DNA from: Iocasia fonsfrigidae
Lineage (GTDB): Bacteria > Bacillota > Halanaerobiia > Halanaerobiales > DTU029
DNA length: 64,000 nucleotides
NCBI RefSeq assembly: GCF_017751145.1
Contig: NZ_CP046640.1
Coordinates: 2,708,137 to 2,772,136 of the forward strand
Reading direction: 5' to 3'
How positions within the stretch are numbered: position 1 is the first letter of the stretch; each line of letters opens with the position of its first letter. Position numbers and translations under genes: made by a program. The notes beneath the pieces were generated by a model. It worked only from the letters and a program-made list of their open reading frames with translations. It made no database searches and was not told the DNA's origin. Shown here piece after piece: positions 30,711 to 60,208 of the stretch.

Positions 30711-30725
30711 CCTACACCTCCAGCT

Positions 30726-30756
30726 AATTGCCAATTGATAATATCAACTGGCAATT
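30726..30756 (-). other. Intercistronic hairpin of module B
   Basis: 15-base arms (30726-30740 and 30742-30756) with one mismatch or wobble pair, between the LolA-like stop and the barrel ribosome site. No T-tract follows, so it is more likely an mRNA processing or stability element than a terminator. Confidence 0.72.
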
Positions 30757-30771
30757 TTATTGGTCATTTCA

Positions 30772-33478: not shown

Positions 33479-35264
33479 TGGATACCACCTCACCTTCAAT
33501 ATTCTGATCACTATTAGCAGCCCAGGCCTTACTGCCAATATGGGCCTGCCACATATCCCTATACAGCTTACAATCCTTTAAGAGTTTTTCATGACTGCCA
33601 GTATCCTCAATCCTACCATTGTTTAAAACAACAATGTTATCAGCATTTCTAATTGTAGATAATCTATGGGCAATAACTAATAATGTCTTTCCTTTGGTAA
33701 GGGCAGCAATTGACTTTTGAATCTTATCTTCATTTTCAGGGTCGGTAAAAGCTGTAGCCTCATCAAGCATGACAATAGGTGCATTTTTAAGAATTGCCCT
33801 GGCAATAGCAATCCTCTGCTTCTCCCCTCCTGAAAGTTTATTTCCAGCTTCCCCTGCCAGGGTATTATATCCCCCATCCAGCTCTTCAATAAATTCATGA
33901 CAGCAGGCCGCTTTAGCTGCCTCTTTTACCTCTTCATCAGAGGCCTTGGAATTTCCCAGACGGATATTTTCCAATAAAGAAGAATTAAAGAGGAAGTTAT
34001 CCTGGGTCACAAAACTGACAGTATCTGTTAGTTGGGTTAGAGGGATATCTCTGATATCAGTATCCCCAATTTTAATAGCACCCTTACCTACATCCCAGAA
34101 CCTGGCCATCAATCTTGCAATAGTAGATTTTCCGCCACCTGATGGACCAACCAGAGCCGTAAAACTTCCCTCTGGAATTTCTAGATCAATATTTGTCAAA
34201 ACATTTTCTTTATTATTTTCATCTTGCAGATAAGAAAAAGATACATTTTCTAGTTTTATATTATAATTCTTTAATTTTACCTGCTGCCTGACAGACGGCA
34301 GTTCTTTCAGATTAAGGAATTGATCAGCATCCCTTAGAGCATATTCAATTGACTTGAGGTCATTTACAAAGACCGTAAACTTTGTCAATGTTTCCACTAT
34401 TCCCAGTGATAAAATAATTGATATTGTCAAATCAGCTGGAGTTAATAAACCATTAATATAAAGATACATTCCTAGCGGTAATGTACCTAATAATGTTGAC
34501 GGTAAAATTGCACTTCCCAGGTTCATTAATTTCCAGGTACTCTGGAACCAATCCAGGGTATAATCCTTAAAATCGTTTATTGCCTTTTGAAATTTTTCAT
34601 AGGAAATAGAAGCATGATTAAAGGCCTTAATAACTTCAATACCCTCAATATACTCTACAATTACACCATTTACATAATTACTTGCTTTCATATAATCATC
34701 ATACTTTTTGTTATATGTTCTCATCACAATTCCATAGGGAATGGCGGCAAGGGGTATAGATATAATGCCTGCAATAGCCATCCGCCAGTCAACAACAATC
34801 AAATAAACCAAAACAGAAACTGCCAGAAGCAGACTAGATAATCCCTCTGGAATTAAATGGGCTAATGGTAGTTCAATGGTTTCTACCCTATCTACTATTA
34901 CATTTTTCATCTTACCTATACTCTCATTTAATACTGTACCTAGAGGTACCTTCATTAACTTATCTGCAATAGCAAGACGGATATTTTCCAATATCTTATA
35001 GGCTGACCTATGAGACAAAACAGTAGAGAAACCATAAAATAAGATCTTAATAAGATATCCTCCCAGACAGATTCCTGCCCAGTATAAAATTTTACTACCT
35101 GTCTGTGTACCTGCAAAAAACATAATAATAATATGGTAAACCCCCAGATAAGGAAGCAAACCACCAAATACACTAATAATCGCCAGTAAAATAGATAGTG
35201 ATAGCTTAATCTTACTACCTTTAGTATAAGAAAATAAAATACCTACCCAGCTTTTCTCCTTCAT
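33471..35264 (-). CDS. ABC exporter pair 1, first half
   Basis: A 597-aa membrane-ATPase fusion. Six helices cover about residues 15-320; Walker A GPSGGGKST near residue 383, signature LSGGEKQR near residue 488, and Walker B VMLDEATAFTDPENE. The AFTDPENE sequence after Walker B is shared with the first halves at 37989 and 41901 (AFADPENE), so the three pairs come from a common ancestor. A DtxR-type box is 86 bases upstream and a TetR gene lies beyond it, so both iron and an effector may control it. YbtPQ-type siderophore import is one option, drug export another. Confidence 0.88.
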   Translation of the reverse strand: MKEKSWVGILFSYTKGSKIKLSLSILLAIISVFGGLLPYLGVYHIIIMFFAGTQTGSKILYWAGICLGGYLIKILFYGFSTVLSHRSAYKILENIRLAIADKLMKVPLGTVLNESIGKMKNVIVDRVETIELPLAHLIPEGLSSLLLAVSVLVYLIVVDWRMAIAGIISIPLAAIPYGIVMRTYNKKYDDYMKASNYVNGVIVEYIEGIEVIKAFNHASISYEKFQKAINDFKDYTLDWFQSTWKLMNLGSAILPSTLLGTLPLGMYLYINGLLTPADLTISIILSLGIVETLTKFTVFVNDLKSIEYALRDADQFLNLKELPSVRQQVKLKNYNIKLENVSFSYLQDENNKENVLTNIDLEIPEGSFTALVGPSGGGKSTIARLMARFWDVGKGAIKIGDTDIRDIPLTQLTDTVSFVTQDNFLFNSSLLENIRLGNSKASDEEVKEAAKAACCHEFIEELDGGYNTLAGEAGNKLSGGEKQRIAIARAILKNAPIVMLDEATAFTDPENEDKIQKSIAALTKGKTLLVIAHRLSTIRNADNIVVLNNGRIEDTGSHEKLLKDCKLYRDMWQAHIGSKAWAANSDQNIEGEVVSNV

Positions 35265-35349
35265 TTATATCTCCCCTCTCATTTCTAATATCATTCCATA
35301 GATTTTGGATGTATTTATCGAAATAAACTCCCCTCTTGCTTTCTGTTTT

Positions 35350-35363
35350 TTAGGGATTCCTAA
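35350..35363 (-). promoter_or_regulatory. DtxR-type iron box upstream of ABC pair 1
   Basis: TTAGGGATTCCTAA, 86 bases before the first ABC gene and after the TetR stop, so the pair can be transcribed separately from tetR. Confidence 0.78.
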
Positions 35364-35379
35364 ATTTAAACTAAAAAAA

Positions 35380-35973
35380 TTAATCTCTTAAAATATCAAT
35401 AAATAAATCTTTAAGATATTTCTTATTCCTCTTGTAAATATTTTTGCCAGCCATCATATTACAATTTATAACAAAGTTATGATAGAGGGTATACAGAAAA
35501 TTTATCTTTTCTCTCAACTTTTCTTTCCCCATGTCAGGGTGTTTTTCAATAATAATATTCACAGTAAGATCAACATATTTTTCCTGGATTAAACCGAATT
35601 TTTCCATAAAATCATTATCATAATAACTTTCATACAATCCCATTAAAAAAAGTCTTCTTTCAGCAAAGTCTTCAAAGATACTCTCTGCTAAATAGTCTAC
35701 CACTTCCCCTATTGTATCCTGATTATCAGCAAACATCTGTCCCAGATAAGCAATAGTATTATCTGATTTTTCCTCTAAAATAGCAAAGTAAATCTCTTTT
35801 GTATTTTTAAAATAATAGTAAAAACCGCCTTTAGATAAGGTAGTTTCATTAATAATATCCTCCATGTTTGTATCTTTAAATCCTTTTCTTAAAAAAACTT
35901 TCTGTGCTGCCTGTTTTATCTCTTCTAACCGCTCCTCTCTGCTTTTCCTTGTATAAGTTTCTATTTTTATCAC
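35380..35973 (-). CDS. TetR-family regulator of ABC pair 1
   Basis: A 197-aa TetR repressor. The DNA-binding part is at about residues 12-60 (VFLRKGFKDTNMEDI, then TTLSKGGFYYYFKNTKEIYF), followed by a helical ligand domain with no recognised motif. It is upstream of ABC pair 1 in the same direction. A 22-bp palindrome sits just before its start. It probably senses the exporter's substrate and represses itself and perhaps the transporter. Confidence 0.9.
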   Translation of the reverse strand: MIKIETYTRKSREERLEEIKQAAQKVFLRKGFKDTNMEDIINETTLSKGGFYYYFKNTKEIYFAILEEKSDNTIAYLGQMFADNQDTIGEVVDYLAESIFEDFAERRLFLMGLYESYYDNDFMEKFGLIQEKYVDLTVNIIIEKHPDMGKEKLREKINFLYTLYHNFVINCNMMAGKNIYKRNKKYLKDLFIDILRD

Positions 35974-35986
35974 CTCTGTTCTGATT

Positions 35987-36008
35987 TAATCGACGCTGAC
36001 GTCGGTTA
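35987..36008 (-). promoter_or_regulatory. TetR operator
   Basis: A 22-bp palindrome, TAA-N-CGACG-CTGA-CGTCG-N-TTA, located 13 bases before the TetR start. Its CG-rich half-sites stand out in this AT-rich DNA. Confidence 0.8.
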
Positions 36009-36073
36009 GTTTTAAAAAAATATTCGAGCTATTTTTTGAAACTTTTTTTAATTTATTCGTCTAATATACCTTG

Positions 36074-36112
36074 AAATCTAAGTGAGAATAATTTTTATTC
36101 TCGCTTAGATTT
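36074..36112 (-). terminator. Hairpin between ABC pair 2 and tetR
   Basis: 18-base arms (36074-36091 / 36095-36112, one G-T pair) with a three-base loop. It is 130 bases after the stop of ABC pair 2 and is its probable terminator. The T-tract is weak. Confidence 0.6.
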
Positions 36113-36241
36113 TATAATATTTACCCATAATTATCAAATATATTATTCTCTACTAACTACTATTATAACTAATCATCTTACTAATAAACCAAAATTCTTA
36201 ATAATACTTACTCACTGTCCTATACTCCATAGTATTCATTT

Positions 36242-37996
36242 CTAATCTTTAGCTAAAGTGGCTTTACTAATCTCCCAACTTTTTGCCTTCATTCGTCTAT
36301 CCCAGAAGTCCTTATATTTTCCCTCTTCTTCTACAAGCTGATTATGATTACCCTTCTGTACAAGATTTCCATTTTCTAATACTAAAATCTGGTTTGCACT
36401 ACGAATAGTCGATAACCTGTGAGCAATCACCACCAGGGTCTTATCTTTAACCAGTTCATTGATAGCCAGTTGAATATATTTTTCATTCTCCGGGTCAACA
36501 CTTGCTGTTGCTTCATCCAGTAATATAATAGGGGCATCTTTCAAAATAGCCCTTGCAATTGAGATCCTCTGTTTTTCACCACCAGACAATGATGAGCCAC
36601 CTTCATCAACCATAGTGTCATACCCATCTGGCAACTCCATAATAAACTCATGGCATCTGGCTTTTTTAGCAACTGCTATTACTTCTTCACGACTAGCCTC
36701 CGGGTTTCCAAATTTAATATTATTAAAAATCGTATCATTAAAGAGATATACATTCTGAAAAACCATACTGATGTTAGATAAAAGACTATCACAAGTCATT
36801 TCTTTGACATTAACCCCACCAACTCTGACTTCACCCTTCTGTACATCCCAGAAGCGGGCAATCAAATTGGCAATGGTAGTTTTACCAGAACCAGATGACC
36901 CCACCAGGGCTGTCATACTTTTTTCAGGTATTGCAAAACTAATATTCTGTAATACCTTCTTATCGTCATAAGCAAAAGAAACATCCTTAAATTCAATATC
37001 AAAGCTATCAAGCTTAATATCCCTGCCATTTTCATCTATAATCTCTATATTTTTCAGGGCATCATATCGATCAAGCCCGGCCTCCATAATCCTGATTTCG
37101 GCACTCAGTAAACTCAAAGCATTAAAGGGTAAGTATATACGGAAGATAAATACAAAGATCATCAACATTATGGACATATTTAGACTCCCGTAAACAGTAA
37201 AACTACTAGCCAGCAAAATAGTTAAGCCAATTCCCAGGGCAAAAATACTCTCAAAACGAAATATATAAGGCATAAAACCCTTTTCCATCTCTATAGAAAT
37301 ATCTCTGAACTCTTCAAAAGCCTTTTTAGTCGCCTTTGCTTTGTCTCCACTCATATTGAAGGCCTTTATTACTGACATCCCCTGCACATATTCCAAAACA
37401 GCAGAAACTAATTCTGATTGTTTATCCTGTCTAATAACAGAATGTTTTTTCCCCACTGCTAAAATCTTCTTGAGCAAAAAGACTCCAATTAAAAAAGCTA
37501 AAATTGATATTACTGCTATTCTGTAATCAATAATCAGCAAAAAAATACAAGCCACCATAGCATTGACATAAGCGATAACAACTTTGTCAATGGCATTCAT
37601 AGCATACATCTCAATAAAATTTATATCAGAGGTAATCACGGCCGAAATATAACCCTTATTCCCTTCACTAAAATAACCCATGGGAAATCTCTTAAATCTA
37701 TCACCAATTTTTATTCTTTCCCGGGCGAAAATCTCAAAACCAGTACCACTCTGCAAAACATAGATAACCCTTTTTAATACACATTGTAAAAGCAAAGCAG
37801 TTATAATAATACCACCACTTATCCAGACATCATTTACATCCAAAGCATCATTCATTATCCCAATTAATATATATAAGATTATAAAGATAGGGACATTATT
37901 AAAAATAGCTTCAAAAAAACTTACAAACATGGCCAGTTTTATTTTGCCTGCAAACTCACCAGCCAGCTTTAATACCCTTTTAATAATACTAAGCAT
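36242..37996 (-). CDS. ABC exporter pair 2, second half
   Basis: A 584-aa half transporter: membrane domain, Walker A GSSGSGKTT near residue 369, signature LSGGEKQR and Walker B ILLDEATASVDPENE. It overlaps the partner's stop by 8 bases, as in pairs 1 and 3. Its C-terminus (NLVQKGNHNQLVEEEGKYKD) closely matches a remnant at 46863-47008, showing that a second copy of this gene once stood next to the AraC gene. Substrate unknown; by comparison with AraC-regulated YbtPQ/PchR systems, a siderophore is plausible. Confidence 0.88.
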   Translation of the reverse strand: MLSIIKRVLKLAGEFAGKIKLAMFVSFFEAIFNNVPIFIILYILIGIMNDALDVNDVWISGGIIITALLLQCVLKRVIYVLQSGTGFEIFARERIKIGDRFKRFPMGYFSEGNKGYISAVITSDINFIEMYAMNAIDKVVIAYVNAMVACIFLLIIDYRIAVISILAFLIGVFLLKKILAVGKKHSVIRQDKQSELVSAVLEYVQGMSVIKAFNMSGDKAKATKKAFEEFRDISIEMEKGFMPYIFRFESIFALGIGLTILLASSFTVYGSLNMSIMLMIFVFIFRIYLPFNALSLLSAEIRIMEAGLDRYDALKNIEIIDENGRDIKLDSFDIEFKDVSFAYDDKKVLQNISFAIPEKSMTALVGSSGSGKTTIANLIARFWDVQKGEVRVGGVNVKEMTCDSLLSNISMVFQNVYLFNDTIFNNIKFGNPEASREEVIAVAKKARCHEFIMELPDGYDTMVDEGGSSLSGGEKQRISIARAILKDAPIILLDEATASVDPENEKYIQLAINELVKDKTLVVIAHRLSTIRSANQILVLENGNLVQKGNHNQLVEEEGKYKDFWDRRMKAKSWEISKATLAKD

Positions 37997-39746
37997 TTAA
38001 ACTGCCCCCTTTTACATTGATATTCCAATCCATAGCATCTGTATGGGCCTGCCACATTTTTTGATAAATTTCTGATTTGTCTAGTAGTTCTTGATGGGTT
38101 CCCTGGGCTGCTATCTGACCATTACCCATTACTATAATATTATTAGCAGCTGTAATAGTTGATAAACGGTGGGCAATCACTATCAAGGTTTTACCTTTAA
38201 TTAAATCATTTAAAGCCTCCTGGATTTTATCTTCATTTTCCGGGTCAGTAAAGGCAGTGGCTTCATCAAGAATAATAATTGGAGCGTCTTTTAATAAAGC
38301 CCTGGCAATTGAGATCCGCTGTTTTTGCCCCCCGGAAATCTTATTACCAGCATCACCAGCCAGGGTATCATATCCCTTATCTAATTCCATAATAAAATCA
38401 TGACATTGGGCAATCCTGGCCACCTTAATAACTTCTTCGTCTACAGCCTCAGGTCTTCCCATCCGAATGTTTTCCATAATGGAAGTATCAAAAAGGAAAA
38501 TATCCTGTGATACATAACTAATTGAATCCATTAATTTGGCAAAGGGTATATTCTTAATATCTATATTACCAATCTTAATTTTACCAGTATTAACATCCCA
38601 AAATCTAACCAGCAATTTGGCAATAGTTGATTTACCAGACCCAGATTCACCAACCAGGGCAGTAACTGTGTTCTCTTTAGCAGTAAAACTAATATCACTT
38701 AAAACTTCTTCTTCATCATAAGCAAAACTTACTTGCTTAAATGAAATATTGCTGTTTCTCGGAATTTGTTCAACTTCACTCTTCACCAGTTCCTGACTAT
38801 CTAAAATTTGATTGATTGCTTGACTCTTTTTGGTAAGCATTGTAATTGATTCTATAAACCTGGCTAATTTGCTAAGTGGTTCGCCTAAACTCATGGATAA
38901 AAGCATAGATAAAATATAAACACTCAAAGAAAGGCTTCCCTGAAGGTAAAACAGGGCACCAAATGGTATCACAAATAACATGGTACAGGGTAAGATAGTA
39001 AAAAATCCCGCCATATATGTCCATGATTCTCGATACCAATCAAGGGTAAACTTCTCATAATCCCTTACTGATTCTGTATATTTTTTAAAAGATGTAGTTG
39101 TCTGGTTAAAAATCTTAATTACTTCCATTCCGCCTATATATTCTACAATATTAGCATTCATTTCAGCACCAGCTTTAAACCAGGATTCTAATTTTTCCTT
39201 ATTACTATTCATCATTAGATGGAATATAAACATTGAAACCGGAATATTTCCTAAAGACAAAAAAGCCATCCGCCAATCAAGGAAAAATAAATAAACTACT
39301 ATTGACAGTGGGACTATAATATAGGACACACCCTCTGGAATCATATGGGCTAAGATTAATTCCATTTCCTCAATCATATCAACAAAAATATTCTTTAATT
39401 TACCGGAGCCCCTCTTTTTTATTTCACCCATGGGCAGTCTAAGTAATTTATCAGCCAGCTTCTTGCGCATACCCATCAGTGTATCGAAAGCAACCTCATG
39501 GGAATTAGCCATCGCCTTCAAAAAAAAGAATGATTTAGCCAGTAAAGACAAGAAAATTAACCCTGATATTAACAAGAGATAATTGAAATTAAGCGGCAAA
39601 TCTCCCATATACCTCATTATAATCCTATACACCAGATAAAAAGGAATTATACCAATAAAAACACTTAAGACTGCCAGTAATACCGCCGTATATAACTTAT
39701 AATGATATTCTTTAGCAAAAGCAAAAACCTTTTTTATTTCTTTCAT
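37989..39746 (-). CDS. ABC exporter pair 2, first half
   Basis: A 585-aa half transporter. Six membrane helices, Walker A GESGSGKST near residue 372, signature ISGGQKQR (Ile for the usual Leu) and Walker B IILDEATAFTDPENE. It forms a heterodimer with the next gene by the 8-base overlap. The upstream interval 39747-40174 has no intact gene: it contains an ABC tail fragment, the repeated motif and an AraC fragment, so the original regulator has been lost from this copy. Confidence 0.88.
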   Translation of the reverse strand: MKEIKKVFAFAKEYHYKLYTAVLLAVLSVFIGIIPFYLVYRIIMRYMGDLPLNFNYLLLISGLIFLSLLAKSFFFLKAMANSHEVAFDTLMGMRKKLADKLLRLPMGEIKKRGSGKLKNIFVDMIEEMELILAHMIPEGVSYIIVPLSIVVYLFFLDWRMAFLSLGNIPVSMFIFHLMMNSNKEKLESWFKAGAEMNANIVEYIGGMEVIKIFNQTTTSFKKYTESVRDYEKFTLDWYRESWTYMAGFFTILPCTMLFVIPFGALFYLQGSLSLSVYILSMLLSMSLGEPLSKLARFIESITMLTKKSQAINQILDSQELVKSEVEQIPRNSNISFKQVSFAYDEEEVLSDISFTAKENTVTALVGESGSGKSTIAKLLVRFWDVNTGKIKIGNIDIKNIPFAKLMDSISYVSQDIFLFDTSIMENIRMGRPEAVDEEVIKVARIAQCHDFIMELDKGYDTLAGDAGNKISGGQKQRISIARALLKDAPIIILDEATAFTDPENEDKIQEALNDLIKGKTLIVIAHRLSTITAANNIIVMGNGQIAAQGTHQELLDKSEIYQKMWQAHTDAMDWNINVKGGSLNA

Positions 39747-39794
39747 TTTTTCACCTTCTTTTTAAGGATTTTGAACTAAACACTCCAACCCAGG

Positions 39795-39887
39795 CTACAA
39801 GCCCTTTTTCCTGATTAATTCCTCATGTCTGCCTTCCTCTACCAGTCTACCTCTGTCCATCACAATAATCTTATTAGCACTCCGCAT
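39795..39887 (-). pseudogene. 30-codon tail of an ABC exporter
   Basis: Encodes MRSANKIIVMDRGRLVEEGR then HEELIRKKGL and a stop: the end of an ABC exporter ATPase domain. The rest of the gene is absent. It is one of four such tails in the window. Confidence 0.75.
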
Positions 39888-39933
39888 TAAAACTTTCCTT
39901 TCTATTTAAGTATTTTAAACCACCTTGATAGTT

Positions 39934-39972
39934 CCTTTCGACCCCTAAAAGTATTTTTTTCACTCAATTTCA
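39934..39972 (-). promoter_or_regulatory. Repeated motif, copy 2 (candidate AraC operator)
   Basis: CCTTTCGACCCCTAAAAG then TATTTTTTTCACTCAATTTC. It lies upstream of ABC pair 2 and just downstream of the AraC fragment. The order AraC, motif, ABC matches that at 47225-46863. Confidence 0.6.
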
Positions 39973-40000
39973 TTAGACTCTCTTATTTTCCCTGAAAACA

Positions 40001-40155
40001 AAATTATTTCTATCACTTTACTCTGCAGATATAACACTTCAATAATCAACCCACAATCCCAGCTGCTTTTCGCAATTAAAAAGGAACAATAATTGCTGGC
40101 ATATTAAGTTTTTTACTAATTTGAATCAACTTATTATCAAAAATTGTTCTTTTCA
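40001..40155 (-). pseudogene. Internal fragment of an AraC-family regulator gene
   Basis: About 155 bases that match the interval 47630-47770 inside the intact AraC gene at high identity, including CTTTACTCTGCAGATATAAC and CCCAGCTGCTTTTCGCAATT. Only the middle of the gene remains, with small indels. Confidence 0.85.
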
Positions 40156-40174
40156 ACTATCTAGATAATAAGTG

Positions 40175-41908
40175 TTAATTATTTTGATACTGCGTCTTTA
40201 ACATTGAGGAAAAGATTCCTTGTTTTTCTTTTAATTCCAAGGATGTGCCTGTTTCTACGATAGTACCTTCTTTAATAACAACAATCTTATCAGCTCCTAA
40301 AACGGTTCTCATCCGGTGAGCAATAACTAAAACGGTTTTGTTTTTGATAAGCACGCTAAGTGCGCTTTGGATTTTGCTCTCATTTTCCGCATCAAGGGAT
40401 GCTGTAGCCTCGTCAAGCAGGATAATCGGAGCGTCTTTTAGTATTGCTCTGGCTATTGAGATCCGCTGCCTTTCGCCTCCTGATAATTTTTCTCCATTTT
40501 CTCCAATCAAGGTATCGTATCCCTGCGGAAGCTTATTAATAAACTCACCGCATTGGGCCAGCTGTGCCGCTTTCCTTACTTCTTCATCGGTTGCGTCTTT
40601 CTTGCCAAGACGAATATTTTCCATCACACTGGAATTAAACAGGGTAACGTCCTGAAAAACGATTGAAAAATTATTCAGCAGGGTTTCAGGATCAACCAGG
40701 GAAATATCTTCTTCGCCCAAGGTGATGACGCCTTTGTCTATATCCCAGAAGCGCGCAGACAGCTTTGCTACCGTACTCTTCCCGCCGCCGGAAGGTCCTA
40801 CCAGCGCGGTCACGTCGCCCTGCTTTGCCATAAAGCTTACATCCTTTAATATCTGCACACCATCCTGATATGAAAAGTCGACGTTTTTGAATTCGATATC
40901 GTAGTTTTTAGGATAAAACTCCGATTTCCCCTCTTGTCTTGGCATTTCATCCATCTCTTTCATGCGGTTTATTCGCACGTTGAGAAACAAAAGCAGTGCA
41001 AGGTTGTTCATTGCATCCATGATCGGGTTATAAATACGTGCGGTAACTACAAGAAAAACAAGATAAGTAAAAATATTTACAGAACCTGTTGCTAAAAGAT
41101 AAGCACCATACAATATAACACTTGGAAGTCCAAGCTTTAAAAACACATAAGATAGGTTGATAAATGCGCCTAACAAAAGTTCTCCTTTAATCATAAACTT
41201 TTCGTAATCGTCTAACTTGGAGTTTAAAGTATTCGAAAAGACCTCTTCTTTGTTATAGGATTTTATTTCATGAGCTAAGTCAAGTCCCTCTTGGATATTG
41301 TCTGAGATCTCCCTTTTTATATTATAAAGGTTCGTATGCATTCTGTTTTGAAACTTTCTCGACAGAAAAAAAACTAAGACTGCAACCGGAACTACCCAAA
41401 AAACAGCAAGAGACAACTTCCAGTTGTAAAAAAACAACATTACTCCTATAATCAGAACATTCAATACTGCTGCATAAATTTGAGGAACAGCATGAGAAAA
41501 TAGCATCTCGATCTGTGTAGCATCTTCCATTATGGTAGAGCTTAAATCGGCAACATCCTTTTTGCCAAAAAAGGCCAACGGTAGTTTTCTTAGTGTTTCA
41601 GCTAGACTGATCCGTCTCCTGGCGCTTTCTTCGTAAATTTTGGTGTAGGTCGAATTATATTGAAAATACGCAATAACCAACATTACGAGGAAAAACGCTA
41701 CAGACATAATAACATAGTAGAAAATGCTGCTTCCCTGGTTGCGTGAAGAGTTTAGAAGTAAACTCATATATTCATCTAAAAATTTAAAGCCGAGGATAAC
41801 CGGAATCATAAAGCTAATGTCCATCACTATGGTCCAAATTATCGAGTAAATAAGGTCTTTCGCTCCTTTTTCAGACATCGCATATTTTTTTTGAAAATAT
41901 TTAATCAT
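40175..41908 (-). CDS. ABC exporter pair 3, second half (island gene)
   Basis: A 577-aa half transporter. Membrane domain to about residue 320; Walker A GPSGGGKST, signature LSGGERQR and Walker B ILLDEATASLDAENE. It overlaps the partner by 8 bases. The codon use is visibly richer in G and C than in the neighbouring genes (for example GCG, CGC and GGC codons), which suggests recent transfer from another Firmicute. It resembles TetR-regulated heterodimeric exporters common in gut clostridia. Drug efflux is the simplest guess; siderophore traffic is possible given iron-type boxes upstream. Confidence 0.88.
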   Translation of the reverse strand: MIKYFQKKYAMSEKGAKDLIYSIIWTIVMDISFMIPVILGFKFLDEYMSLLLNSSRNQGSSIFYYVIMSVAFFLVMLVIAYFQYNSTYTKIYEESARRRISLAETLRKLPLAFFGKKDVADLSSTIMEDATQIEMLFSHAVPQIYAAVLNVLIIGVMLFFYNWKLSLAVFWVVPVAVLVFFLSRKFQNRMHTNLYNIKREISDNIQEGLDLAHEIKSYNKEEVFSNTLNSKLDDYEKFMIKGELLLGAFINLSYVFLKLGLPSVILYGAYLLATGSVNIFTYLVFLVVTARIYNPIMDAMNNLALLLFLNVRINRMKEMDEMPRQEGKSEFYPKNYDIEFKNVDFSYQDGVQILKDVSFMAKQGDVTALVGPSGGGKSTVAKLSARFWDIDKGVITLGEEDISLVDPETLLNNFSIVFQDVTLFNSSVMENIRLGKKDATDEEVRKAAQLAQCGEFINKLPQGYDTLIGENGEKLSGGERQRISIARAILKDAPIILLDEATASLDAENESKIQSALSVLIKNKTVLVIAHRMRTVLGADKIVVIKEGTIVETGTSLELKEKQGIFSSMLKTQYQNN

Positions 41909-43709
41909 TTTTTTCCTCCTTGCTTACAGTGTCTTTAGCAACTATTTTCCAGGCAACAGATTTTTGGTATTCATCCCACATGATTTTGTAGATGCCGCCT
42001 TTATTCAGCAGTTCCTCGTGCGTTCCTTCCTCCGCAATCCTTCCGCTATCAATAACCAGGATTCTGTCGACATTCTGTACGCTGGTAAGACGATGTGCAA
42101 TCATGAGAGTCGTTTTTCCTTGGCTAAGCTCTTTAAGGGCTTTTTGGATTAAATGCTCATTTTCCGGGTCAGCAAAGGCAGTGGCTTCATCTAAAAGAAC
42201 GATTGGTGCATTCTTTACAAATGCTCTGGCAAGTGCAATTCTCTGCTGTTCTCCCCCTGAAAGATAGGTCCCTTTAGAACCTATCACCGTATCGAGGCCC
42301 TCAGACAGGTTTTCAATAATTTCTCTTGACTGCGAAAAATCAATTGCCTTATTGATAACTTCTTCTCCAGAGTGTTCTTTTCCAAAGACTATATTCTCTC
42401 TTAATGAACCCTTAAATAGCTTTGTACTTTGAAAAACAAAGGAAATGTTATCCATCAGTTCTTTTTTAGGAATGTCCTTCACATTTATTCCTCCGACTAA
42501 GACTTCGCCTTCATCTGCATCCCAAAAACGAGCGGCCAGTCGGGCAATCGTTGTTTTCCCTCCTCCGGAAGGCCCAACAAGAGCGATGGTTTCACCTTCG
42601 TTTAATTTAAAGCTGATTTTATCGATGGTGGGTTTGTCGCTGCCTTCATATGAAAACACTACATCCTTAAACTCAACGCTATGCTTATTAATATTTTTTG
42701 TATTTTCGATATAGCTCATACTTGGATAATCTAAAAGCTTATCCAGTCTGTCAATTGCTTGCTCGGCAATCAAAGTATTTTGCTGAAAATACATCGATTT
42801 CATCAAAAGCATAGTAAAAATAGGAGATATAAGAATGTAAAAGATAAAGTCGGCAAGCACAAGAGGGAGATTTTCACCTCTTCCTATTAAAAAGATAGCC
42901 ATTGGAATTAAAAAAAAGGCCGCTGATTGCATAATTATGGTGTAAAATGACATCGGCTTTTGCCAAAGGAGAGTATAGGCGTGAACCATCTCTTTATATT
43001 TGATTATACTGTCATAAAATCGTTTAAAAGCAAAGATAGTTTGACCGAATGTTTTTACAACCGGAATACCGCGGATATATTCTACGGATTCAGAGCTCAT
43101 TTCCTCCAAAGAATCATAATACATTTTTTGGAATTTTCTACCTTCGGAATTTCTCATGAACCTCATTGTTATAAAGCCCAAAATAATCGGAACAAGAGAA
43201 GCAAGGCCCATTCTCAAGTCTACGATTAAAATCAAAGCGATAAGAATAATGGGGGAGATGATGCTACCCGCCATATCCGGGAGCTGGTGTGCTAAAAATG
43301 TATGAGTTGTTCCCGCACCGTCGTTGACAATTTTTCGTATCTTTCCGCTGGAATGCTGATCAAAAAAACCCAGCGGCATCGCTAGTATTTTTTTCATACC
43401 AACTTTTTGCATTCCGACCTCTACGCGAAAGGCCGCCAGATGTGAACTCATCAGTGCACAAAAATATACTGCTATTCCCCCTATTGCACTTGCCAAGGCT
43501 AGCCACGCGTAAAAACTGACATTTGAAACATCAATGGATTGTGGAACCGATAATATATCACGTGTTATGTACCATACGAGTACAAAAGGCAAGATGTTAA
43601 GGACTGCTGAAAGTCCTGACAATACTAATGACAAAGGCAAAAGTACTTTCTTCTTGCCCATATAAGGCGTGAACCTTTTTAAAACAAATTCTTTTTTCTT
43701 TTTTGGCAT
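41901..43709 (-). CDS. ABC exporter pair 3, first half (island gene)
   Basis: A 602-aa half transporter. Membrane domain about residues 15-330, Walker A GPSGGGKTT near residue 378, signature LSGGEQQR and Walker B VLLDEATAFADPENE. It is the first gene of the pair, 241 bases downstream of a TetR gene. The interval between them holds a Fur-like 19-mer and a DtxR-like palindrome, so metal control is possible. The higher G+C content matches the rest of the island (about 40.2-46.8 kb). Confidence 0.88.
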   Translation of the reverse strand: MPKKKKEFVLKRFTPYMGKKKVLLPLSLVLSGLSAVLNILPFVLVWYITRDILSVPQSIDVSNVSFYAWLALASAIGGIAVYFCALMSSHLAAFRVEVGMQKVGMKKILAMPLGFFDQHSSGKIRKIVNDGAGTTHTFLAHQLPDMAGSIISPIILIALILIVDLRMGLASLVPIILGFITMRFMRNSEGRKFQKMYYDSLEEMSSESVEYIRGIPVVKTFGQTIFAFKRFYDSIIKYKEMVHAYTLLWQKPMSFYTIIMQSAAFFLIPMAIFLIGRGENLPLVLADFIFYILISPIFTMLLMKSMYFQQNTLIAEQAIDRLDKLLDYPSMSYIENTKNINKHSVEFKDVVFSYEGSDKPTIDKISFKLNEGETIALVGPSGGGKTTIARLAARFWDADEGEVLVGGINVKDIPKKELMDNISFVFQSTKLFKGSLRENIVFGKEHSGEEVINKAIDFSQSREIIENLSEGLDTVIGSKGTYLSGGEQQRIALARAFVKNAPIVLLDEATAFADPENEHLIQKALKELSQGKTTLMIAHRLTSVQNVDRILVIDSGRIAEEGTHEELLNKGGIYKIMWDEYQKSVAWKIVAKDTVSKEEKND

Positions 43710-48326: not shown

Positions 48327-48962
48327 TTATTTTTCTAATGGAGGGAGCATCGAAGAATACATTTTAACCTGCTTCATCATTCCCTGAACAACTTCTTCTT
48401 TATCGACCTGGTAAGTTTTAAATAATGTCGGCCACCAATCTACTACTGACAGATCAGTAGTTAAAAAATCAAAATTTTGGTTACCGTAACGCATATGGCA
48501 GTGTTTCATGCCATCTCCGTCACCATGATAAGGCATCATAATTAAATGCTTATACCCCGCCTTTATTGCCTCATTATTCTCAGTCCTGAAAATATACCAG
48601 CTAATACTATATTCACCCCAGACAGTATTAAAATTACCAATATACTGGTATTTAGCCTCGATTTCATCATCAAAAATAACTGTTTCAGCATCAACTATCT
48701 TCATTGTCGAAAAAGATGTTTCATACATTTTTGCAAAATAATTATATACCATCTCAGCATCATAACCATCGGCATAATTGGCTACCTCTTCAAAAAAACT
48801 ATCTCCACTCTCTGTATTAAACAGATTAATATATGTTTCATTATTACCTTTCCATGGTAACAAATCAGATACAACATTATCATCAGCCGAAATAAAAGCA
48901 GGAACAAGCAATACCAAAAACACCATTACCATCATAGAAAATAATATTTTTTTGCTTTTCAC
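48327..48962 (-). CDS. ZinT/YodA-like periplasmic metal-binding protein
   Basis: A 211-aa exported protein. Signal peptide to about residue 26, then a lipocalin-like region: WKGNNETYINLF, KYQYIGNFNTVWGEYSISWY, the His-rich MMPYHGDGDGMKHCHMRYGN near residue 145, and WWPTLFK at the end. The order (Trp near the start, Tyr-rich strand, HxH motif, WPT) follows ZinT, which binds zinc or cadmium, though identity looks low. The start is GTG 48962 with GAGGTGAT. A DtxR-type box 91 bases upstream suggests control by iron rather than zinc. Confidence 0.7.
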   Translation of the reverse strand: MKSKKILFSMMVMVFLVLLVPAFISADDNVVSDLLPWKGNNETYINLFNTESGDSFFEEVANYADGYDAEMVYNYFAKMYETSFSTMKIVDAETVIFDDEIEAKYQYIGNFNTVWGEYSISWYIFRTENNEAIKAGYKHLIMMPYHGDGDGMKHCHMRYGNQNFDFLTTDLSVVDWWPTLFKTYQVDKEEVVQGMMKQVKMYSSMLPPLEK

Positions 48963-49230: not shown

Positions 49231-49445
49231 TTAGCAATCTAAGACAAATTTATCAAAAGCCGTAATACTCAGAGGCACTTCCTGAACATCCTTTTCTTGT
49301 TGTTTTTCTGTAGTTACTTTAACAGTCCTAATTCATATTCAACCTCATCCTCAGAACTCTCCTCTGCATTTATCGGTACACTAACAGCCATTAATATAAA
49401 ACAGATCATAAGCAATCCCAAAACTCGATTATAATTTCTCAACAT
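49231..49445 (-). pseudogene. N-terminal remnant of a TonB-dependent receptor
   Basis: From ATG 49445 (AGGAGGAAT upstream) a signal peptide MLRNYNRVLGLLMICFIL is followed by an acidic stretch. After a frameshift it continues TVKVTTEKQQEKDVQEVPLS then ITAFDKF, a TonB-box and plug start, and stops at 49231. The rest is deleted. It follows tonB by 75 bases and was probably the fourth gene of that operon. Confidence 0.75.
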
Positions 49446-49520: not shown

Positions 49521-50402
49521 CTATTCCAACTCAAACACAATTGTAATATGCATCGTAACTAAATCATCATCGTCTTTGTCTGGTACTGGCGGAAAAGATG
49601 CTGCCCGTTTAATTGTAGATACTGCTGCTTTATCTAAAATTGAATATCCAGACGAATCAATTACTTTTACATCCTTCAATTTTCCATTACCCCAAATTAT
49701 AAATTCTAATCGAATTTCCCCCTCTATTCCCCGCTTTTGGGCAAAACGAGGATAACTTTGAGCAGAAATAATTTTTTTTATTACAATCTGAAAATAACTT
49801 TCAGGAACTTGTAGTCTTTGAATTTCATTTTGACTTTCAGATGAAGCTGTTTCATCTTCAACAGTAGATTTTATGTCTTTAGATGAGGACTCGTTATTTT
49901 CTACATTAGCCTTAGATTTTTTAACTACTTTTTCTTCTTGTCCCTCTACTATAGGCTTCGATTCTTCAATCACTTCTTCTACTTCTTCTGGCATAGGCTC
50001 GGGTTCTTCAATCACTTCCTCTGATTCTTCTGGCATAGGTTCTGGCTCTTCAATCACTTCCTCTACTTCTTCTAGTATAGGCTCGGGTTCTTCAATCACT
50101 TCCTCTACTTCTTCTGGCATAGGTTCTGGCTCTTCAATCACTTCCTCTACTTCTTCTAGTATAGGCTCGGGTTCTTCAATCACTTCCTCTACTTCTTCTG
50201 GCATAGGTTCTGGTTCTTCAATCACTTCCTCTGCTTCTTCTGGCATAGGCTCAGGTTCTTCGAACTCAATAGAGATTTCAAGTGGTGTTTCAATAAAATC
50301 AGGAGGAATCTCATATAAGTTCCAGGCCACAAGTAAAAATAAACAATGAATACCCAAAGCAAATAACAATGCTAATTGAATAAGATTATCATTCCTCCCC
50401 AT
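49521..50402 (-). CDS. tonB: TonB energy-transducing protein with an acidic repeat arm
   Basis: A 293-aa protein. One membrane anchor at residues 8-28; residues 50-147 are seven 14-residue repeats (PEPMPEEVEEVIEE type), and residues 200-293 form the C-terminal TonB domain (QSYPRFAQKRGIEGEIRLEF, DSSGYSILDKAA, FPPVP). The periplasm-spanning arm is glutamate-proline rather than the usual proline-lysine mix. It overlaps exbD by 14 bases and belongs to exbB-exbD-tonB. It would energise the receptor at 9122 using proton force from ExbBD. Confidence 0.93.
   Translation of the reverse strand: MGRNDNLIQLALLFALGIHCLFLLVAWNLYEIPPDFIETPLEISIEFEEPEPMPEEAEEVIEEPEPMPEEVEEVIEEPEPILEEVEEVIEEPEPMPEEVEEVIEEPEPILEEVEEVIEEPEPMPEESEEVIEEPEPMPEEVEEVIEESKPIVEGQEEKVVKKSKANVENNESSSKDIKSTVEDETASSESQNEIQRLQVPESYFQIVIKKIISAQSYPRFAQKRGIEGEIRLEFIIWGNGKLKDVKVIDSSGYSILDKAAVSTIKRAASFPPVPDKDDDDLVTMHITIVFELE
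49962..50255 (-). repeat. Seven tandem 42-bp repeats inside tonB
   Basis: 98 residues in exactly seven 14-residue units. Units alternate between PEPMPEE and PEPILEE starts, which suggests duplication of two-unit blocks. Such arrays can change copy number by slippage and alter the reach of TonB. Confidence 0.95.
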
Positions 50403-50820
50403 GCATCACACCTTCTACTTTCTTAGTTGAAATAATTAAATTTTCTCCTTTCGCCTGCCGTGCAATATCCATTACCTTTACCACAAATCCCATTGGCACA
50501 GCTTCATCAGATTTGAGTACAACTTTTTTTAGCTGACTATTTTTCAATTTTTCTGCAAGCGATTTCTCTAACTGCTCAAGTTCAAATGTTTCATTATCTA
50601 AAAAAATTCGTTGATCTTGATCAATATATATAACCACCGGTTCACTTTCTTCCTGAATCTTTCCAGTCTCTGCCTGTGGCAAATTTAGTTCAATACCATT
50701 ATCAGTTACAAAACTAGAGGTTAGCATAAAAAATAGAAGAAGCATAAACACAATGTCTATTAAAGGAGCGATATCAAGATGCATCTCTACACCCTTTGGC
50801 CTGTCAAATTCCATATTCAA
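50389..50820 (-). CDS. exbD: ExbD biopolymer transport protein
   Basis: A 143-aa inner-membrane protein. A single helix at about residues 17-36 begins with the essential Asp (IAPLIDIVFMLLLFFMLTS), followed by a periplasmic domain. It overlaps exbB by 17 bases and tonB by 14. With ExbB it forms the proton channel that energises TonB. Confidence 0.95.
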   Translation of the reverse strand: MNMEFDRPKGVEMHLDIAPLIDIVFMLLLFFMLTSSFVTDNGIELNLPQAETGKIQEESEPVVIYIDQDQRIFLDNETFELEQLEKSLAEKLKNSQLKKVVLKSDEAVPMGFVVKVMDIARQAKGENLIISTKKVEGVMHGEE

Positions 50821-51478
50821 TATCCTCCTTAGTATTTATAGTTTCATTACTTTCATCAAAATCTACATGGGTTTCCCCTAACCATTCTGATAAAAGTTGA
50901 ACTGACTCTTTCATCTGGGCATAATAGCGATCAATTTTACCCTCAAAATAATGGTAAAAAATCATGGCAGGAATAGCTACTGTTAGACCAGTAGCAGTAG
51001 TAATTAATGCCGCCCAAATACCTCCCGCTAATACTACCGGGTCTACACTTCCTCCTAATTCCTGAATCTTTTTAAAGGCCTCAATCATACCAGCAACAGT
51101 TCCCAGGAGACCAATCAGAGGAGAAACATGTGCCACAATGCCTAAACCACTAATATTCCTTGACATCTTTCGTAATTCTCTTGAACCAATTCGAAATAGT
51201 ATTTTATCGCGCTCTTCCTGTGATTTTTCATGCTGCTCAATTCCAGCACTAATAACCTGAGAGACCGGGCAATTTTTAGCTTGACTAATTCGTATTGCTT
51301 CCGAAAACTTCTCCTGCTGAACTAAAATACCAACCTGCTCTAACATTTCATTAGAATAATTTTTAAGTTTTCTAAAATAATACCATCTCTCTAATACAAT
51401 AGCCAAAACAATACTAGAACATATTAATAATGGGTACATTAAAACCCCGCCTTTTTCAAACAATAAATAAATATTAAT
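50804..51478 (-). CDS. exbB: ExbB/TolQ-type proton channel protein
   Basis: A TolQ/ExbB-family protein of 219-224 aa with three helices: residues 10-25, SPLIGLLGTVAGMIEAFKKI near residue 120, and WAALITTATGLTVAIPAMIF near residue 155. The family N-terminus FEKGGVLMYPLL lies upstream of the first ATG (51439), so translation begins earlier. TTG 51463 lacks a ribosome site; ATT 51478 has GGGGGG eight bases upstream and gives MNIYLLFEKGG, a better family match. The start is uncertain between these. It is the first gene of the iron-controlled exbB-exbD-tonB operon. Confidence 0.93.
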   Translation of the reverse strand: MNIYLLFEKGGVLMYPLLICSSIVLAIVLERWYYFRKLKNYSNEMLEQVGILVQQEKFSEAIRISQAKNCPVSQVISAGIEQHEKSQEERDKILFRIGSRELRKMSRNISGLGIVAHVSPLIGLLGTVAGMIEAFKKIQELGGSVDPVVLAGGIWAALITTATGLTVAIPAMIFYHYFEGKIDRYYAQMKESVQLLSEWLGETHVDFDESNETINTKEDIEYGI

Positions 51479-55667: not shown

Positions 55668-58113
55668 TTATAAAAAATCCTTTGACTCATCAATTATTTT
55701 TTCATATTTCTTATCAAAGGGTTTAATCATATTTAAACACACTGGGGTTACAAAATAATCCGCCAGGAGTGCTGCCAGAATACCCACACCGGCTAAAACT
55801 CCAAAGTGAATATATAATTTTGCAATAGAGCTTAAATAGGCTGCAAAATTAAAAATCAATACCAGAGAGGTCATAAATAGGGATTTACCAACTACTCTAA
55901 AGGTATGTTCGATAGACAAAACATAGTCCCCTCTCTGTTGATACTCATATTTAGCATGATTAATAAAGTGGATTGTATCATCAACTGCTAGCCCCATTAT
56001 CATCGGCATAAGTGTCGCTGTAATCATATCAAAAGGTATACTAAAAATACCCATGACACCCCCAACAGCTAAAACCGGTGAAATATTGGGAATAAGCCCT
56101 ATCAAACCAACTTTAACACTGCCAAAGACAAGCATCATTAAGAAAGCTATTACTATTAAAGCAATTAAAAAGGCCTTTACCTGTCCTATCGAAACCTTAT
56201 AACTCATATCAGTATATTTAGCACCAGAACCACTAATAAATACCTTGGCCTCAGGAAAAAGTTCTTTTCCTAATTCTTCTATTCTCTGGTGTTCAGCTAA
56301 TAGTTCTTTTTGCCGAAATTTAGAGATTTCAACCCTGATCCGTAACTTTTTATAATTATAGTCAACCCACTTGTCTAACTCATCCCCCCCCTGCATTTTC
56401 ATACAAAAGTAAGGTCTGGGCTATCATTGGTCTTGTCTCTGGTATTTTGTAATATGCAGGATTATCCTCATTTAAGACCTGATTTAGGTCTTTTAAGATA
56501 TTTAAAATAGAAGTAGTCCTTTTAGTCAAAGAAAATCCTTCAATCTCTTGAACAAAACTATCTAATCTCTGTAAAAATTCCGGGTCTTTAACTACATTAT
56601 CCTCTGTAAATTCAATCCCAATATCATAATTAATCATAGAGCCAATTTTCGTTTCTCCTACACTTATCATCCTATCTACAAAAGGAACCTTTCTCCCCAT
56701 TGTCCTTTCATTATCAAAATCCACTTCTGTTTTTGTTAGTCCATAGACAAATATTAGAGTTAGAATAATAGAAACAGAAATTATTGGCATAGTATTCTTC
56801 AAAATCCATTTGCCCAAAGCAGCTAATTTGCCTTCTAAACCACTACCCTCCTCTTCGACTAATTTATGAGAAGATTTTCTATCTCTACCAAAACTCAAAA
56901 CAATAGCGAAAACTAAAACAGTCAATAAATAGGTAAGGGCTACTATTAAGGCAGTAGTATAACCCATCCAATTTAATACCTTTATCTTAATAAAGGCAAA
57001 AGACATTAAGGCACAGATCGTTGTTAAGGCTGTAAATAAAAGCGGCCAGCCTGTCTTTTCTATGGCAGTTATTACTGCTTCTTTCCTTTTCCCTGTCCTT
57101 AAGAACTCTTTTTTAAAAAAGTTAAAGAGGTGGATTGAATAACCGACTGCCACAGCTAAACCTAAAAATAAAGGCATAGGGAGAACCGAAGGCTGGACTG
57201 TTGTCTTAAAATATCCTTCAATCCCTAAGGTAATAACCATTGCTCCTATAGCTATGACAATTGGGAAAACCACCCCCCTAAAAGAGCGTAAAAATACCCC
57301 CAATAGAATTATAGAAATAATTAGCCCCAATTTCATCAATCCCGGGGTCTCTTTGAGAAAAAAATCCCTCTTATCTACCGTCATACAGGCTGTCCCTGTG
57401 GTTTTGGGATTTAAGCTCTGATACTTATCTTGCCGGGCAATCCTATTTGCTATCTTTCCCGTAATATAATTAGGAGCAACCGGCTCTGACGATAGATTAA
57501 ATCCTTGATATAGTTTGGGATATTCTTTAGCTTTATTCTGTAAATAAGTCAAATAATCTTTATTTTTTCGCCAATTATCTGGATCTTTCCTTAATTCAAC
57601 TAGAACCCATGTCTCTTTAGCATCATCAGATACCAGTCTATTATAAAGTGTTTTTTTAGCTAAGGCTTTTTGCTTTAATCCCTCTAACGTCTCCTTATCA
57701 GCTGGTATCTCTTCAGGAATAAGGTCTCCTACATCTATACCCCAGTCTGTTCCTGTCACAAATTCAAAGTCTGTAATCGAAGTAACCTCATCTACCATAG
57801 GAACTTCATGTTCTAATTCATATGTTAACTCCCTTACTTTTGCTAGATTTTCCTTCTTGAAAACATTATCAACCTGAATATGTACTGCACATATATCTGT
57901 ATTGCCAAACATCTTCTCAAATCTATCCTCTAATACTATTACTGGATCATCATCGAAATACCAGGCATCATTAGATGAATCTTTTTCTATCCCTTTTAAT
58001 CCCATAAAGCTAAAACCCACAAAAATAGCAAATATAATTAAGACTAAATAACGATATTTAATTACTTTCTTCCCTAATAATCTAAATCTCGCATTGATCT
58101 TCTCTAAATCCAT
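55668..58113 (-). pseudogene. Module C RND/MMPL-family transporter, frameshifted at a G8 run
   Basis: Homolog of the module B RND protein along its whole length (about 814 aa). The first 577 codons (56380-58113) carry the first half with GLAVAVGYSIHLFNFF and most of the second periplasmic domain. The second frame (55668-56402) carries DKWVDYNYKKLRIRVEIS and the last helices with GLAVDDTIHFINHA. The break is in a run of eight G on the coding strand; seven would restore ENAGGDELDKWV. It may be phase-variable, recently inactivated or miscalled. If really shifted, the protein lacks the last six helices. Confidence 0.88.
56394..56401 (-). repeat. Poly-G(8) tract at the frameshift
   Basis: Eight C on the plus strand. 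The paralog has no such run (GCTGGAGGAAATG at the same codons). A long G run is unusual in this AT-rich sequence. Confidence 0.9.
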
Positions 58114-58146
58114 CTTTAAACACTCACCTCACTTAAGTTATGTAAA

Positions 58147-59349
58147 CTAAAAATCATATTTAACCTTTACCCATAATGAATCATTATCATCATAGTTTGC
58201 AAACTCCCCTTCATCCCCAAAGAAATAATCTATCCCTGTTAAGAAATGAAGGTTGTCATTTACTGCATAATCTAAAGAAATTCTATTAAAACCATCCCTC
58301 TCATCGGTTTCATAATAAACCATATTAGCAAGTTCAAGGGTCTCTCTATAGAACTTCTTGCTTAGATTTAATATCAGGATAGTCTGACTCTCATCTTCTT
58401 CTATTTCATCTTCATAATCAAAGATATATTTATTGGTAAGCTGGGTAGTTACTGTCCAGTTGTTTCCAGGATACCAGTCTAAACCTGCTAAAGAATGAAC
58501 ATAATCCCTTTCCAATAGTCCACAATTATTATCAGCAGAAAAATATTTGCCCTGATAATAGGCTGACTCAAACCTGATTACAAAATCATTTACTGGTTTT
58601 GATAAATCAAGACCGTAGAATCTTAAACGATGGTATTCTGGTGTAAAGGTAGCACCTGTTTTATGATAGGTAGCTTCATCATCCCATAAATAGGCTGTTG
58701 AAAAGGAAAAGTCTATTCCGTTTAGATAAAAAGACAATCTTGCTGCCAGTTCACTATTCCCTAACTCATTTTCAACCTCTTCTGCTGAATTTACCTTAAT
58801 ACCTTTTTCCACATACCAGGGATTATCCTCATCCCCAGGGTATACTGGCTCTGTAAAGGTAGGAATCCAGACTAACTCTAAATCAGCCATAGGAAACAAA
58901 TATCTGTATTTTACTGAATCTACCGGTATCCTTATCTCATCAAAATCCCTGGTAATAAATTCACTATAGTCACAGGGTGAAAGCACATCCGTTATCCTTA
59001 CTCCATCTGCCTTCCCCCAGCTATAGATCTGTCTGCCAATTTTTACATCCCACAGGGGCTGGGTATATTCAAGATAGGCTTCATGGATCTCTACTTCTAA
59101 CTCATCATCTTCTATTATTCCATTACTAACCCCATTTAAAGAGGCAAACATATACATATTATCACTACTATTCCTAAGATTTAATCTAAACCTTGAACGT
59201 TCACCAATAAAATCATGATCGTCTTTTAATTTTATCGAATAATAGCTTTCTAAAAAACCATCAAATTGGAGTCCCTGAGCTAAAACATTATTAACTGCAA
59301 AAATTAAAAACACTATAATTAATAAAGAAAATACTAGCGGTTTTCTCAT
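58147..59349 (-). CDS. Module C outer-membrane beta-barrel
   Basis: About 400 aa, starting at ATG 59349 with GGAGGTG upstream. It is almost identical to the module B barrel; I see one Thr-to-Ile change (ILTLNL to ILILNL) and a change at the penultimate residue (YNF to YDF). It has a signal peptide, many amphipathic strands and a C-terminal Phe. It probably works with the LolA-like and RND proteins of module C, under the iron box at 60261. If the RND partner is out of frame, it could still serve module B's RND. Confidence 0.82.
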   Translation of the reverse strand: MRKPLVFSLLIIVFLIFAVNNVLAQGLQFDGFLESYYSIKLKDDHDFIGERSRFRLNLRNSSDNMYMFASLNGVSNGIIEDDELEVEIHEAYLEYTQPLWDVKIGRQIYSWGKADGVRITDVLSPCDYSEFITRDFDEIRIPVDSVKYRYLFPMADLELVWIPTFTEPVYPGDEDNPWYVEKGIKVNSAEEVENELGNSELAARLSFYLNGIDFSFSTAYLWDDEATYHKTGATFTPEYHRLRFYGLDLSKPVNDFVIRFESAYYQGKYFSADNNCGLLERDYVHSLAGLDWYPGNNWTVTTQLTNKYIFDYEDEIEEDESQTILILNLSKKFYRETLELANMVYYETDERDGFNRISLDYAVNDNLHFLTGIDYFFGDEGEFANYDDNDSLWVKVKYDF

Positions 59350-59364
59350 CCTACACCTCCAGCT

Positions 59365-59395
59365 AATTGCCAATTGATAATATCAACTGGCAATT
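59365..59395 (-). other. Intercistronic hairpin of module C
   Basis: Identical to the module B hairpin (30726-30756) because it lies inside the near-identical tract. Confidence 0.72.
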
Positions 59396-59410
59396 TTATT
59401 GGTCATTTCA

Positions 59411-60208
59411 CTAATATCTGATATTCCCCCGTTTTAACATTGAGGTCCTAAATAGATTATCATCCATTGCTACATTAAATTTAAGTTCTGTCATATCTAT
59501 AATAGTCTGGTGTTCATCCTGTTTGTTAACCATTAACCTTTGTTTAGGGGTCCAGATCCCATCTATCTCGACAATATCTTTAGCCTGGTAGGTTTTTAGT
59601 AAACCATATTCGTTATAGTAGTCAGTCTTTATTGCCATAGCTATATCCTGTCTTATCCAGGATATCTTCTTGGTATAATCCCCTTCATCAATTTCTTTAG
59701 GAATTGATTGAATAACCCAGCATTGATACCCATTTAGCTCTTCTTCTCGCAATAAGGTATGCTCATCTTCATCTACATTCCTGTCTCCCATATCATCATA
59801 GGTGAAATCTGTTCCCATAAAATAGTCATCATTGGAACTCCCACTGATTCTCCTTATTTTTCGTAAAGCAGGCATATAAAGCCATCTATTATCTTCCTTA
59901 TCCTCGTCATCATACTCCCAGCTTAAATAACCTGTACCCTTCACATCTCCCGGGCTTTCAAAGATCATAATTGCTTTAGTGTCTTTCCCATAGTCTTTCT
60001 GATAACTTACTACCTCTCTTATCCGCTTATCACCTACATTATTGATTAAGGTCATTACCATTTTTGCCTTCCTTGTATCACCATCATCCCTATTATCAAC
60101 CTTCACCATAATATCTCTCCCTGTCAGACCTGAAGCCTGGGTAAAATTAGCTATTATTAACATTAATAACACAGTCAAAAGCAAAATTCTCTTTGTCAAC
60201 TTAATCAC
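59411..60208 (-). CDS. Module C LolA-like periplasmic protein
   Basis: A 265-aa exported protein. The mature part matches the module B protein residue for residue as far as I can read, but the signal peptide is entirely different (MIKLTKRILLLTVLLMLIIA against MRNRILLVFLLLILVLGTVV). It carries the family blocks AIMIFESPGDVKGTGYLSW and FMGTDFTYDDM. It is first in module C, with a DtxR-type box 53 bases upstream, so it is probably made when iron is scarce. Confidence 0.87.
   Translation of the reverse strand: MIKLTKRILLLTVLLMLIIANFTQASGLTGRDIMVKVDNRDDGDTRKAKMVMTLINNVGDKRIREVVSYQKDYGKDTKAIMIFESPGDVKGTGYLSWEYDDEDKEDNRWLYMPALRKIRRISGSSNDDYFMGTDFTYDDMGDRNVDEDEHTLLREEELNGYQCWVIQSIPKEIDEGDYTKKISWIRQDIAMAIKTDYYNEYGLLKTYQAKDIVEIDGIWTPKQRLMVNKQDEHQTIIDMTELKFNVAMDDNLFRTSMLKRGNIRY

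Follow-up and report, generated by a model that had tools for sequence, protein, structure and literature searches.

The TonB protein of Escherichia coli is driven by the ExbB-ExbD motor, and a conserved histidine in the N-terminal membrane helix is a hallmark of TonB proteins. The arm that follows the helix in E. coli TonB (b1252) is net neutral and consists of a Glu-Pro block and then a Lys-Pro block. In excerpts of PMC10771500, these blocks are described as rods that may form a hairpin, in which the ExbD-binding motif would stay masked until the hairpin is pulled open by tension. HasB of Serratia marcescens, which we consider from the literature only, is a TonB-type transducer with a disordered linker that lacks an extensive Glu-Pro stretch according to the same excerpts (PMC10771500). 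Among the matches listed in a literature search, the titles and the beginnings of the abstracts contained no report of repeat-built or acidic TonB arms, and such arms are not described in the excerpted texts of PMC10666116, PMC7098700, and PMC6821194. Force transmission through the TonB arm and the regulatory role of opposite charge blocks are the questions on which the arrays described below bear.

The window, i.e., the whole stretch of 64,000 nucleotides that was analyzed, comes from Iocasia fonsfrigidae. Strain NS-1 is a cold-seep anaerobe with optima of pH 7.0 and 2.5-7.5% NaCl, as given in excerpts of PMC8652127. The source genome is a single contig of 3,926,493 bp, in which the TonB_C, ExbD, and receptor plug profiles have three matches each. 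A sister strain, SP3-1, is described in PMC9587714. The tonB gene of the window is the last gene of an overlapping ExbB-ExbD-TonB set of adjacent genes (Table 1). The best motor subtype models were TolQ (103.8 of 221) and TolR (70.2 of 127.3), and the ExbB and ExbD models likewise remained below their cut-offs. A TolA identity for the window TonB was rejected (TIGR02794, 21.8 bits against a cut-off of 59.45).

Table 1. Features of the tonB locus, with positions in the window.
Feature	Position	Strand	Basis or remarks
tonB	49521..50402	-	293 aa; PF03544 69.5 bits, TIGR01352 64.7 bits
N-terminal membrane helix, residues 5-30, with His19	50313..50390	-	AlphaFold helix 5-30
Candidate ExbD-binding stretch PLEISIEF, residues 40-47	50262..50285	-	P40, E42, I45, and F47 invariant in three orthologs
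Seven 14-residue acidic repeats, residues 48-145	49968..50261	-	Tandem Repeats Finder, self-match; AlphaFold low confidence, unstructured
Degenerate eighth repeat, residues 146-159, holding K149	49926..49967	-	Array alignment
C-terminal receptor-binding domain, residues 201-292	49527..49802	-	Block-mean pLDDT 86-97; Foldseek
ExbD/TolR-family protein	50389..50820	-	143 aa; PF02472 119.4 bits
ExbB/TolQ-family protein	50804..51463	-	219 aa; PF01618 106.5 bits
Possible remnant of the start of a TonB-dependent receptor (signal peptide, with the plug start in a different frame and stops beyond)	49234..49445	-	Weak matches, E 0.24 and 2.9
Antisense open frame, not a gene	49873..50349	+	158 aa; expected by chance, P 0.53

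The window TonB has the same general anatomy as E. coli TonB: a membrane helix, a proline-rich arm with Glu-Pro dipeptides, and a C-terminal domain of the same fold. The profile score for this domain is far above the PF03544 cut-off of 24.6. An AlphaFold model was built from a six-sequence alignment, in which H19 is invariant. Its C-terminal domain matches solved TonB domains, the top PDB match by Foldseek being the C-terminal domain of Helicobacter pylori TonB (6sly, E 3.6e-8); the preliminary description had therefore correctly named the protein. Residues 31-200 are modeled without structure (block-mean pLDDT 31-52), and the arm contains 20 prolines between residues 47 and 160. The stretch at residues 40-47 is a candidate ExbD-binding region, located immediately behind the membrane helix, much like the ExbD-binding region of HasB (excerpts of PMC10771500). 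By profile and fold, the window protein is a TonB of ordinary architecture, and by its family it would function as an energy transducer. The feature is real and the protein type is known; what is surprising is a homologous array with switched charges in a relative and an envelope-wide correlation of charge, not a relation to salt.

The arm is built of seven copies of a 14-residue unit, EEPEPMPEEVEEVI, with the variable form EEPEP(M/I)(P/L)EE(V/A/S)EEVI. This agrees with the preliminary description, whose interval 49962-50255 is this array with the unit boundaries placed two residues away; the degenerate eighth copy is an addition. Its statement that lysine is absent until residue 149 also holds: K149 is the first lysine, and R3 and H19 are the only other Lys, Arg, or His residues before it. 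Tandem Repeats Finder described the array in three overlapping rows with periods of 42, 84, and 126 (scores 441, 528, and 487), and the other five of the eight rows in the window scored only 53-58. In the self-match of the arm over lags of 5-39, the top value was 0.91 at lag 28, and 2000 shuffles of its own residues reached a maximum of 0.54. The repeats had been called exact at 42 bp. The period is indeed exactly 42 bp, yet the copies are 0-7 nt apart; copies 3 and 5 form the one identical pair, and copies 4 and 6 are one codon apart. An 84-bp dimer describes the array better than the 42-bp unit (3.6 copies, 95% matches). Because the 84-bp units formed by copies 2-3 and 4-5 differ by 1 nt, duplication by pairs is the simplest history, and the copies show that duplication in the array was recent. 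The further proposal that such repeats allow changes in length would rest on the array of this one genome. A promoter and terminator scan gave site numbers about equal to those in shuffles.

In a tree of 83 C-terminal domains, which has few columns and places L036 on a long branch, the window TonB groups with L122 of genome G056 and L036 of genome G018 (support 100/99). This TonB type was found in three of the 59 genomes searched in the class. The window ExbB is 67% identical to its counterpart in G056 and 59% identical to that in G018, and the ExbD proteins of the window and G056 share 66% identity. A search with the window ExbB in 398 genomes of the phylum, among which G056 is not listed, returned at E 1e-40 or better the protein itself, the 59% match of G018, and five proteins at 37-40%. 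One scan of the contigs of named genomes for relatives gave only three distant proteobacterial loci.

G056 belongs to another order of the same class and has an orthologous ExbB-ExbD-TonB operon, the TonB of which carries nine 14-residue units, VVEKPKPISEEVEE (97% match). In contrast to the window array, each unit has Lys at two positions where the Iocasia unit has Glu. The consensus units have the 14-residue frame in common and are equal at 9 of 14 residues (best-rotation shuffle P 0.0047), with a shared codon at eight of these nine. At the two switched sites, the Glu and Lys codons are one base apart (GAG/AAG and GAA/AAA). Judged from these units, the two orthologous arrays are homologous, with two charges per unit reversed. 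The mean distance between copies is 3.8 nt among six Iocasia copies, 1.3 nt among eight G056 copies, and 10.2 nt between the species, a pattern that concerted evolution would give. Of the two switched sites, one is Lys in the degenerate last copy of Iocasia, and neither is Lys in that of G056. Because the G056 array has Lys at two Glu sites, duplication and homogenization can apparently multiply a single charge change. The G056 operon also differs from that of the window in being followed by a long receptor frame and ABC-importer-like genes. No 14-residue array was seen in the TonB of G018.

We surveyed the class and found 83 TonB genes, of which 82 arms were used. L019 was dropped (arm <60 aa), L033, L039, and L105 were kept though shortened by contig ends or unknown bases, and a class match below the cut-off (G026:C158) was left out of the TonB set. 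An arm charge of -0.3 per residue or lower was observed in 28 of the 82 arms of the class. Of the 26 arms that we examined elsewhere in the phylum (11 + 15, two of them fragments), which were taken from the best-scoring loci first and are not a random sample, none was this acidic. On these counts, the class is enriched in acidic arms. The window arm itself has -0.32 charge per residue and a Lys/Arg-free run of 122 residues. Runs of at least 100 residues were found in 19/82 class arms, and runs of at least 80 in 2/26 of the examined arms from other classes. The other TonBs of the same genome (L001 and L003) share the domain family but lack the 14-residue unit; the arm of L001 is mixed (-0.14), whereas that of L003 (G000:C1:2142756-2142974) consists of some 25 Glu-Pro dipeptides in a long Lys-free run. 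Near-perfect arrays (96-100% match) with units of 18 bp (L039, G021), 12 bp (L123, G056), and 15 bp (L120, G054) indicate that repeat-built arms recur in the class.

These arms bear directly on the hairpin model. The extreme 25-residue segments have net charges of -7 and +9 in the E. coli arm, but -14 and +2 in the window arm. Paired Glu-Pro and Lys-Pro blocks are absent from the latter; they are a feature of E. coli TonB and do not define the family. Segments of -5 or lower and of +5 or higher occur together in 14 of the 82 class arms. A net-positive 25-residue segment is lacking in 38/82, among them the arms of both H. hydrogeniformans TonBs and two that are cut short (L033 and L105). Without a positive block, an arm cannot fold into a hairpin of opposite blocks, so the Glu-Pro/Lys-Pro hairpin is unlikely to be general, and an extended like-charged tether is favored. 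The window arm is not the cleanest single-sign example because a small basic cluster follows the array (residues 158-164), and a partial hairpin may form in it. A broader generalization is somewhat doubtful: that single-sign arms are common and functional in the class, so that the hairpin would lie outside the general Ton mechanism, and that arm charge would be a freely tunable property of the envelope, being flipped in a few steps when homogenization spreads one Lys-Glu change. With the natural TonBs that lack a net-positive block and the ortholog pair whose units differ in Lys or Glu at two positions, the hairpin model becomes testable by domain swap.

We compared the charge of the arms with that of other proteins in 52 genomes (368 exported and 959 cytoplasmic proteins). 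The two sets were split by a simple hydrophobicity rule, which gave few exported proteins per genome, and TonB was left out. Mean arm charge followed the charge of the exported proteins (rho 0.915) and showed no relation to that of the cytoplasmic proteins of these genomes (rho -0.08). As sources of arm charge, cytoplasmic charge and GC found no support, the partial rho on GC being 0.91. The correlation was also observed with exported proteins of at least 180 aa only (rho 0.90), and in 21 genomes with exported proteins from stretches elsewhere in the genome, which for Iocasia include the other genes of the window (rho 0.73). Kinship was controlled only coarsely, by genus means (0.944, n = 29), families (0.95, n = 10), within-family values (0.76, n = 48), and within-genus deviations (0.50, n = 31, P 0.004). 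Within Halanaerobium alone, rho was 0.66 (n = 11, P 0.03), and for this genus the sample from elsewhere in the genomes gave 0.66 (n = 6, P 0.16). With a slope of about 3.8, the trend of the exported proteins is exaggerated in the disordered arm. When arms were fitted singly (n = 78), 63% of the variance was explained. Wide differences within a genome were seen between the two arms of G015 (+0.04 and -0.42) and between those of G014 (-0.09 and -0.40), although the exported proteins of these genomes are only mildly acidic (-0.04 and -0.03). The window arm lies on the acidic side of the value expected for its genome (-1.18 residual SD). The link between arm and exported charge provides a simple sequence readout of envelope adaptation where cytoplasmic proteins showed none here.

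Based on these observations, we propose the following mechanism. The ExbB-ExbD proton channel encoded just upstream would drive TonB, with its membrane helix, periplasm-spanning disordered arm, and receptor-binding domain. The arm would be a spacer, the length of which is set by duplication of the 42/84-bp unit, and homogenization of the copies would keep its charge uniform. Its acidity would largely reflect a shift of exported proteins toward acid throughout the lineage, which is stronger in a disordered segment that no fold constrains; high salt in itself would not be the main determinant. Such an arm would work as an extended like-charged tether that needs no opposing Lys-Pro block, rather than as a Glu-Pro/Lys-Pro hairpin. 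We assign a probability of about 0.65 to this explanation as a whole.

Whatever makes the envelope acidic would lie behind this trend, and the five species with published optima allow a limited comparison. Arm charges are +0.05 and -0.12 in H. praevalens (13% NaCl) and -0.06 in H. orenii (10%), whose optima were taken from table columns in excerpts of PMC8652127 and assigned through the references cited there. They are -0.18 and -0.18 in A. arabaticum (15-18%), -0.32, -0.23, and -0.14 in NS-1, and -0.41 and -0.41 in H. hydrogeniformans (7.5%), the most acidic of the five. Because H. hydrogeniformans has a pH optimum of 11, external alkalinity might drive the acidification of the envelope, with the arms following. 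Both of its TonBs are strongly acid-shifted compared with those of its congener H. praevalens (pH about 7). However, it is the one named alkaliphile, the NS-1 arm is acidic at pH 7, and the correlation with pH is not significant (rho -0.5, n = 5). We regard alkalinity as an unlikely driver, although the best placed of the alternatives.

The preliminary description attributed the acidity to a periplasm at high salinity. The enrichment of acidic arms in the class agrees with this, but a causal role of salt is not supported: with range mid-points, the five NaCl optima (only five) fail to order the arms, the trend being toward less acidic arms with more salt (rho +0.6, not significant, P 0.28), and NS-1 itself has its optimum at 2.5-7.5%. 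Arm charge is better predicted from the charge of a genome's other exported proteins than from salt. Ten named TonBs were used for comparison. Two of them, closely related plasmid TonBs of the marine alphaproteobacterium Sagittula (L237 and L238), have arms at -0.23 without a net-positive 25-residue segment, that of S. meliloti has an acidic and then a basic block (-9 and +10), and the other seven range from -0.03 to +0.04. The Sagittula arms fit salt as well as envelope acidity. In excerpts of PMC3817357, periplasmic proteins of Chromohalobacter are reported to be unusually acidic, so acidic periplasmic proteins of a halophile are already known, and the proteomes of Halanaerobiales are described as not acidic overall. 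On balance, adaptation to high salt appears improbable as the explanation.

About equally improbable is neutral drift, in which slippage in GAA-rich DNA expands any unit present and the charge has no role. Tandem arrays scoring at least 50, many of them weak, occur in 59 of the 83 TonB genes of the class, and the identity of copies 3 and 5 is what slippage would leave. However, arm charge tracks the exported proteins even after correction for GC, and although some codons vary, the unit keeps its seven Glu residues, Pro 3, Pro 5, Val 13, and Ile 14 in all seven copies.

The possible receptor remnant lies directly after tonB, where long receptor frames are found in G056 and G018. Because this receptor start looks decayed, the window TonB may now serve unlinked receptors. 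Next to it is a gene for an exported ZinT-like protein (48327-48962, minus strand; PF09223, 31.3 bits), which hints at zinc or metal uptake around the operon. That the acidic arm binds a periplasmic divalent metal, as this next downstream gene might suggest, is very improbable, since the array has no His or Cys, the called genes in the 20-kb loci of the G056 and G018 operons have no ZinT match at E 1e-5, and many other TonBs have acidic arms.

The antisense open frame across the array was rejected as a gene and is a by-product, as had been proposed: among 1000 versions in which synonymous codons were drawn anew at local frequencies, 52.8% had an antisense opening of at least this length. Farther from the operon, the minus strand has two copies (27035-31560 and 55668-60208) of a cassette that encodes a large membrane transporter and two exported proteins, one of 408 aa and one of 262/265 aa. 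By eye, its 408-aa proteins are almost identical, and the second transporter is split between two frames. The region 31730-43709 (minus strand) contains six paired genes for ABC-exporter-like half-transporters with TetR-like regulators between or beside them, as judged by eye.
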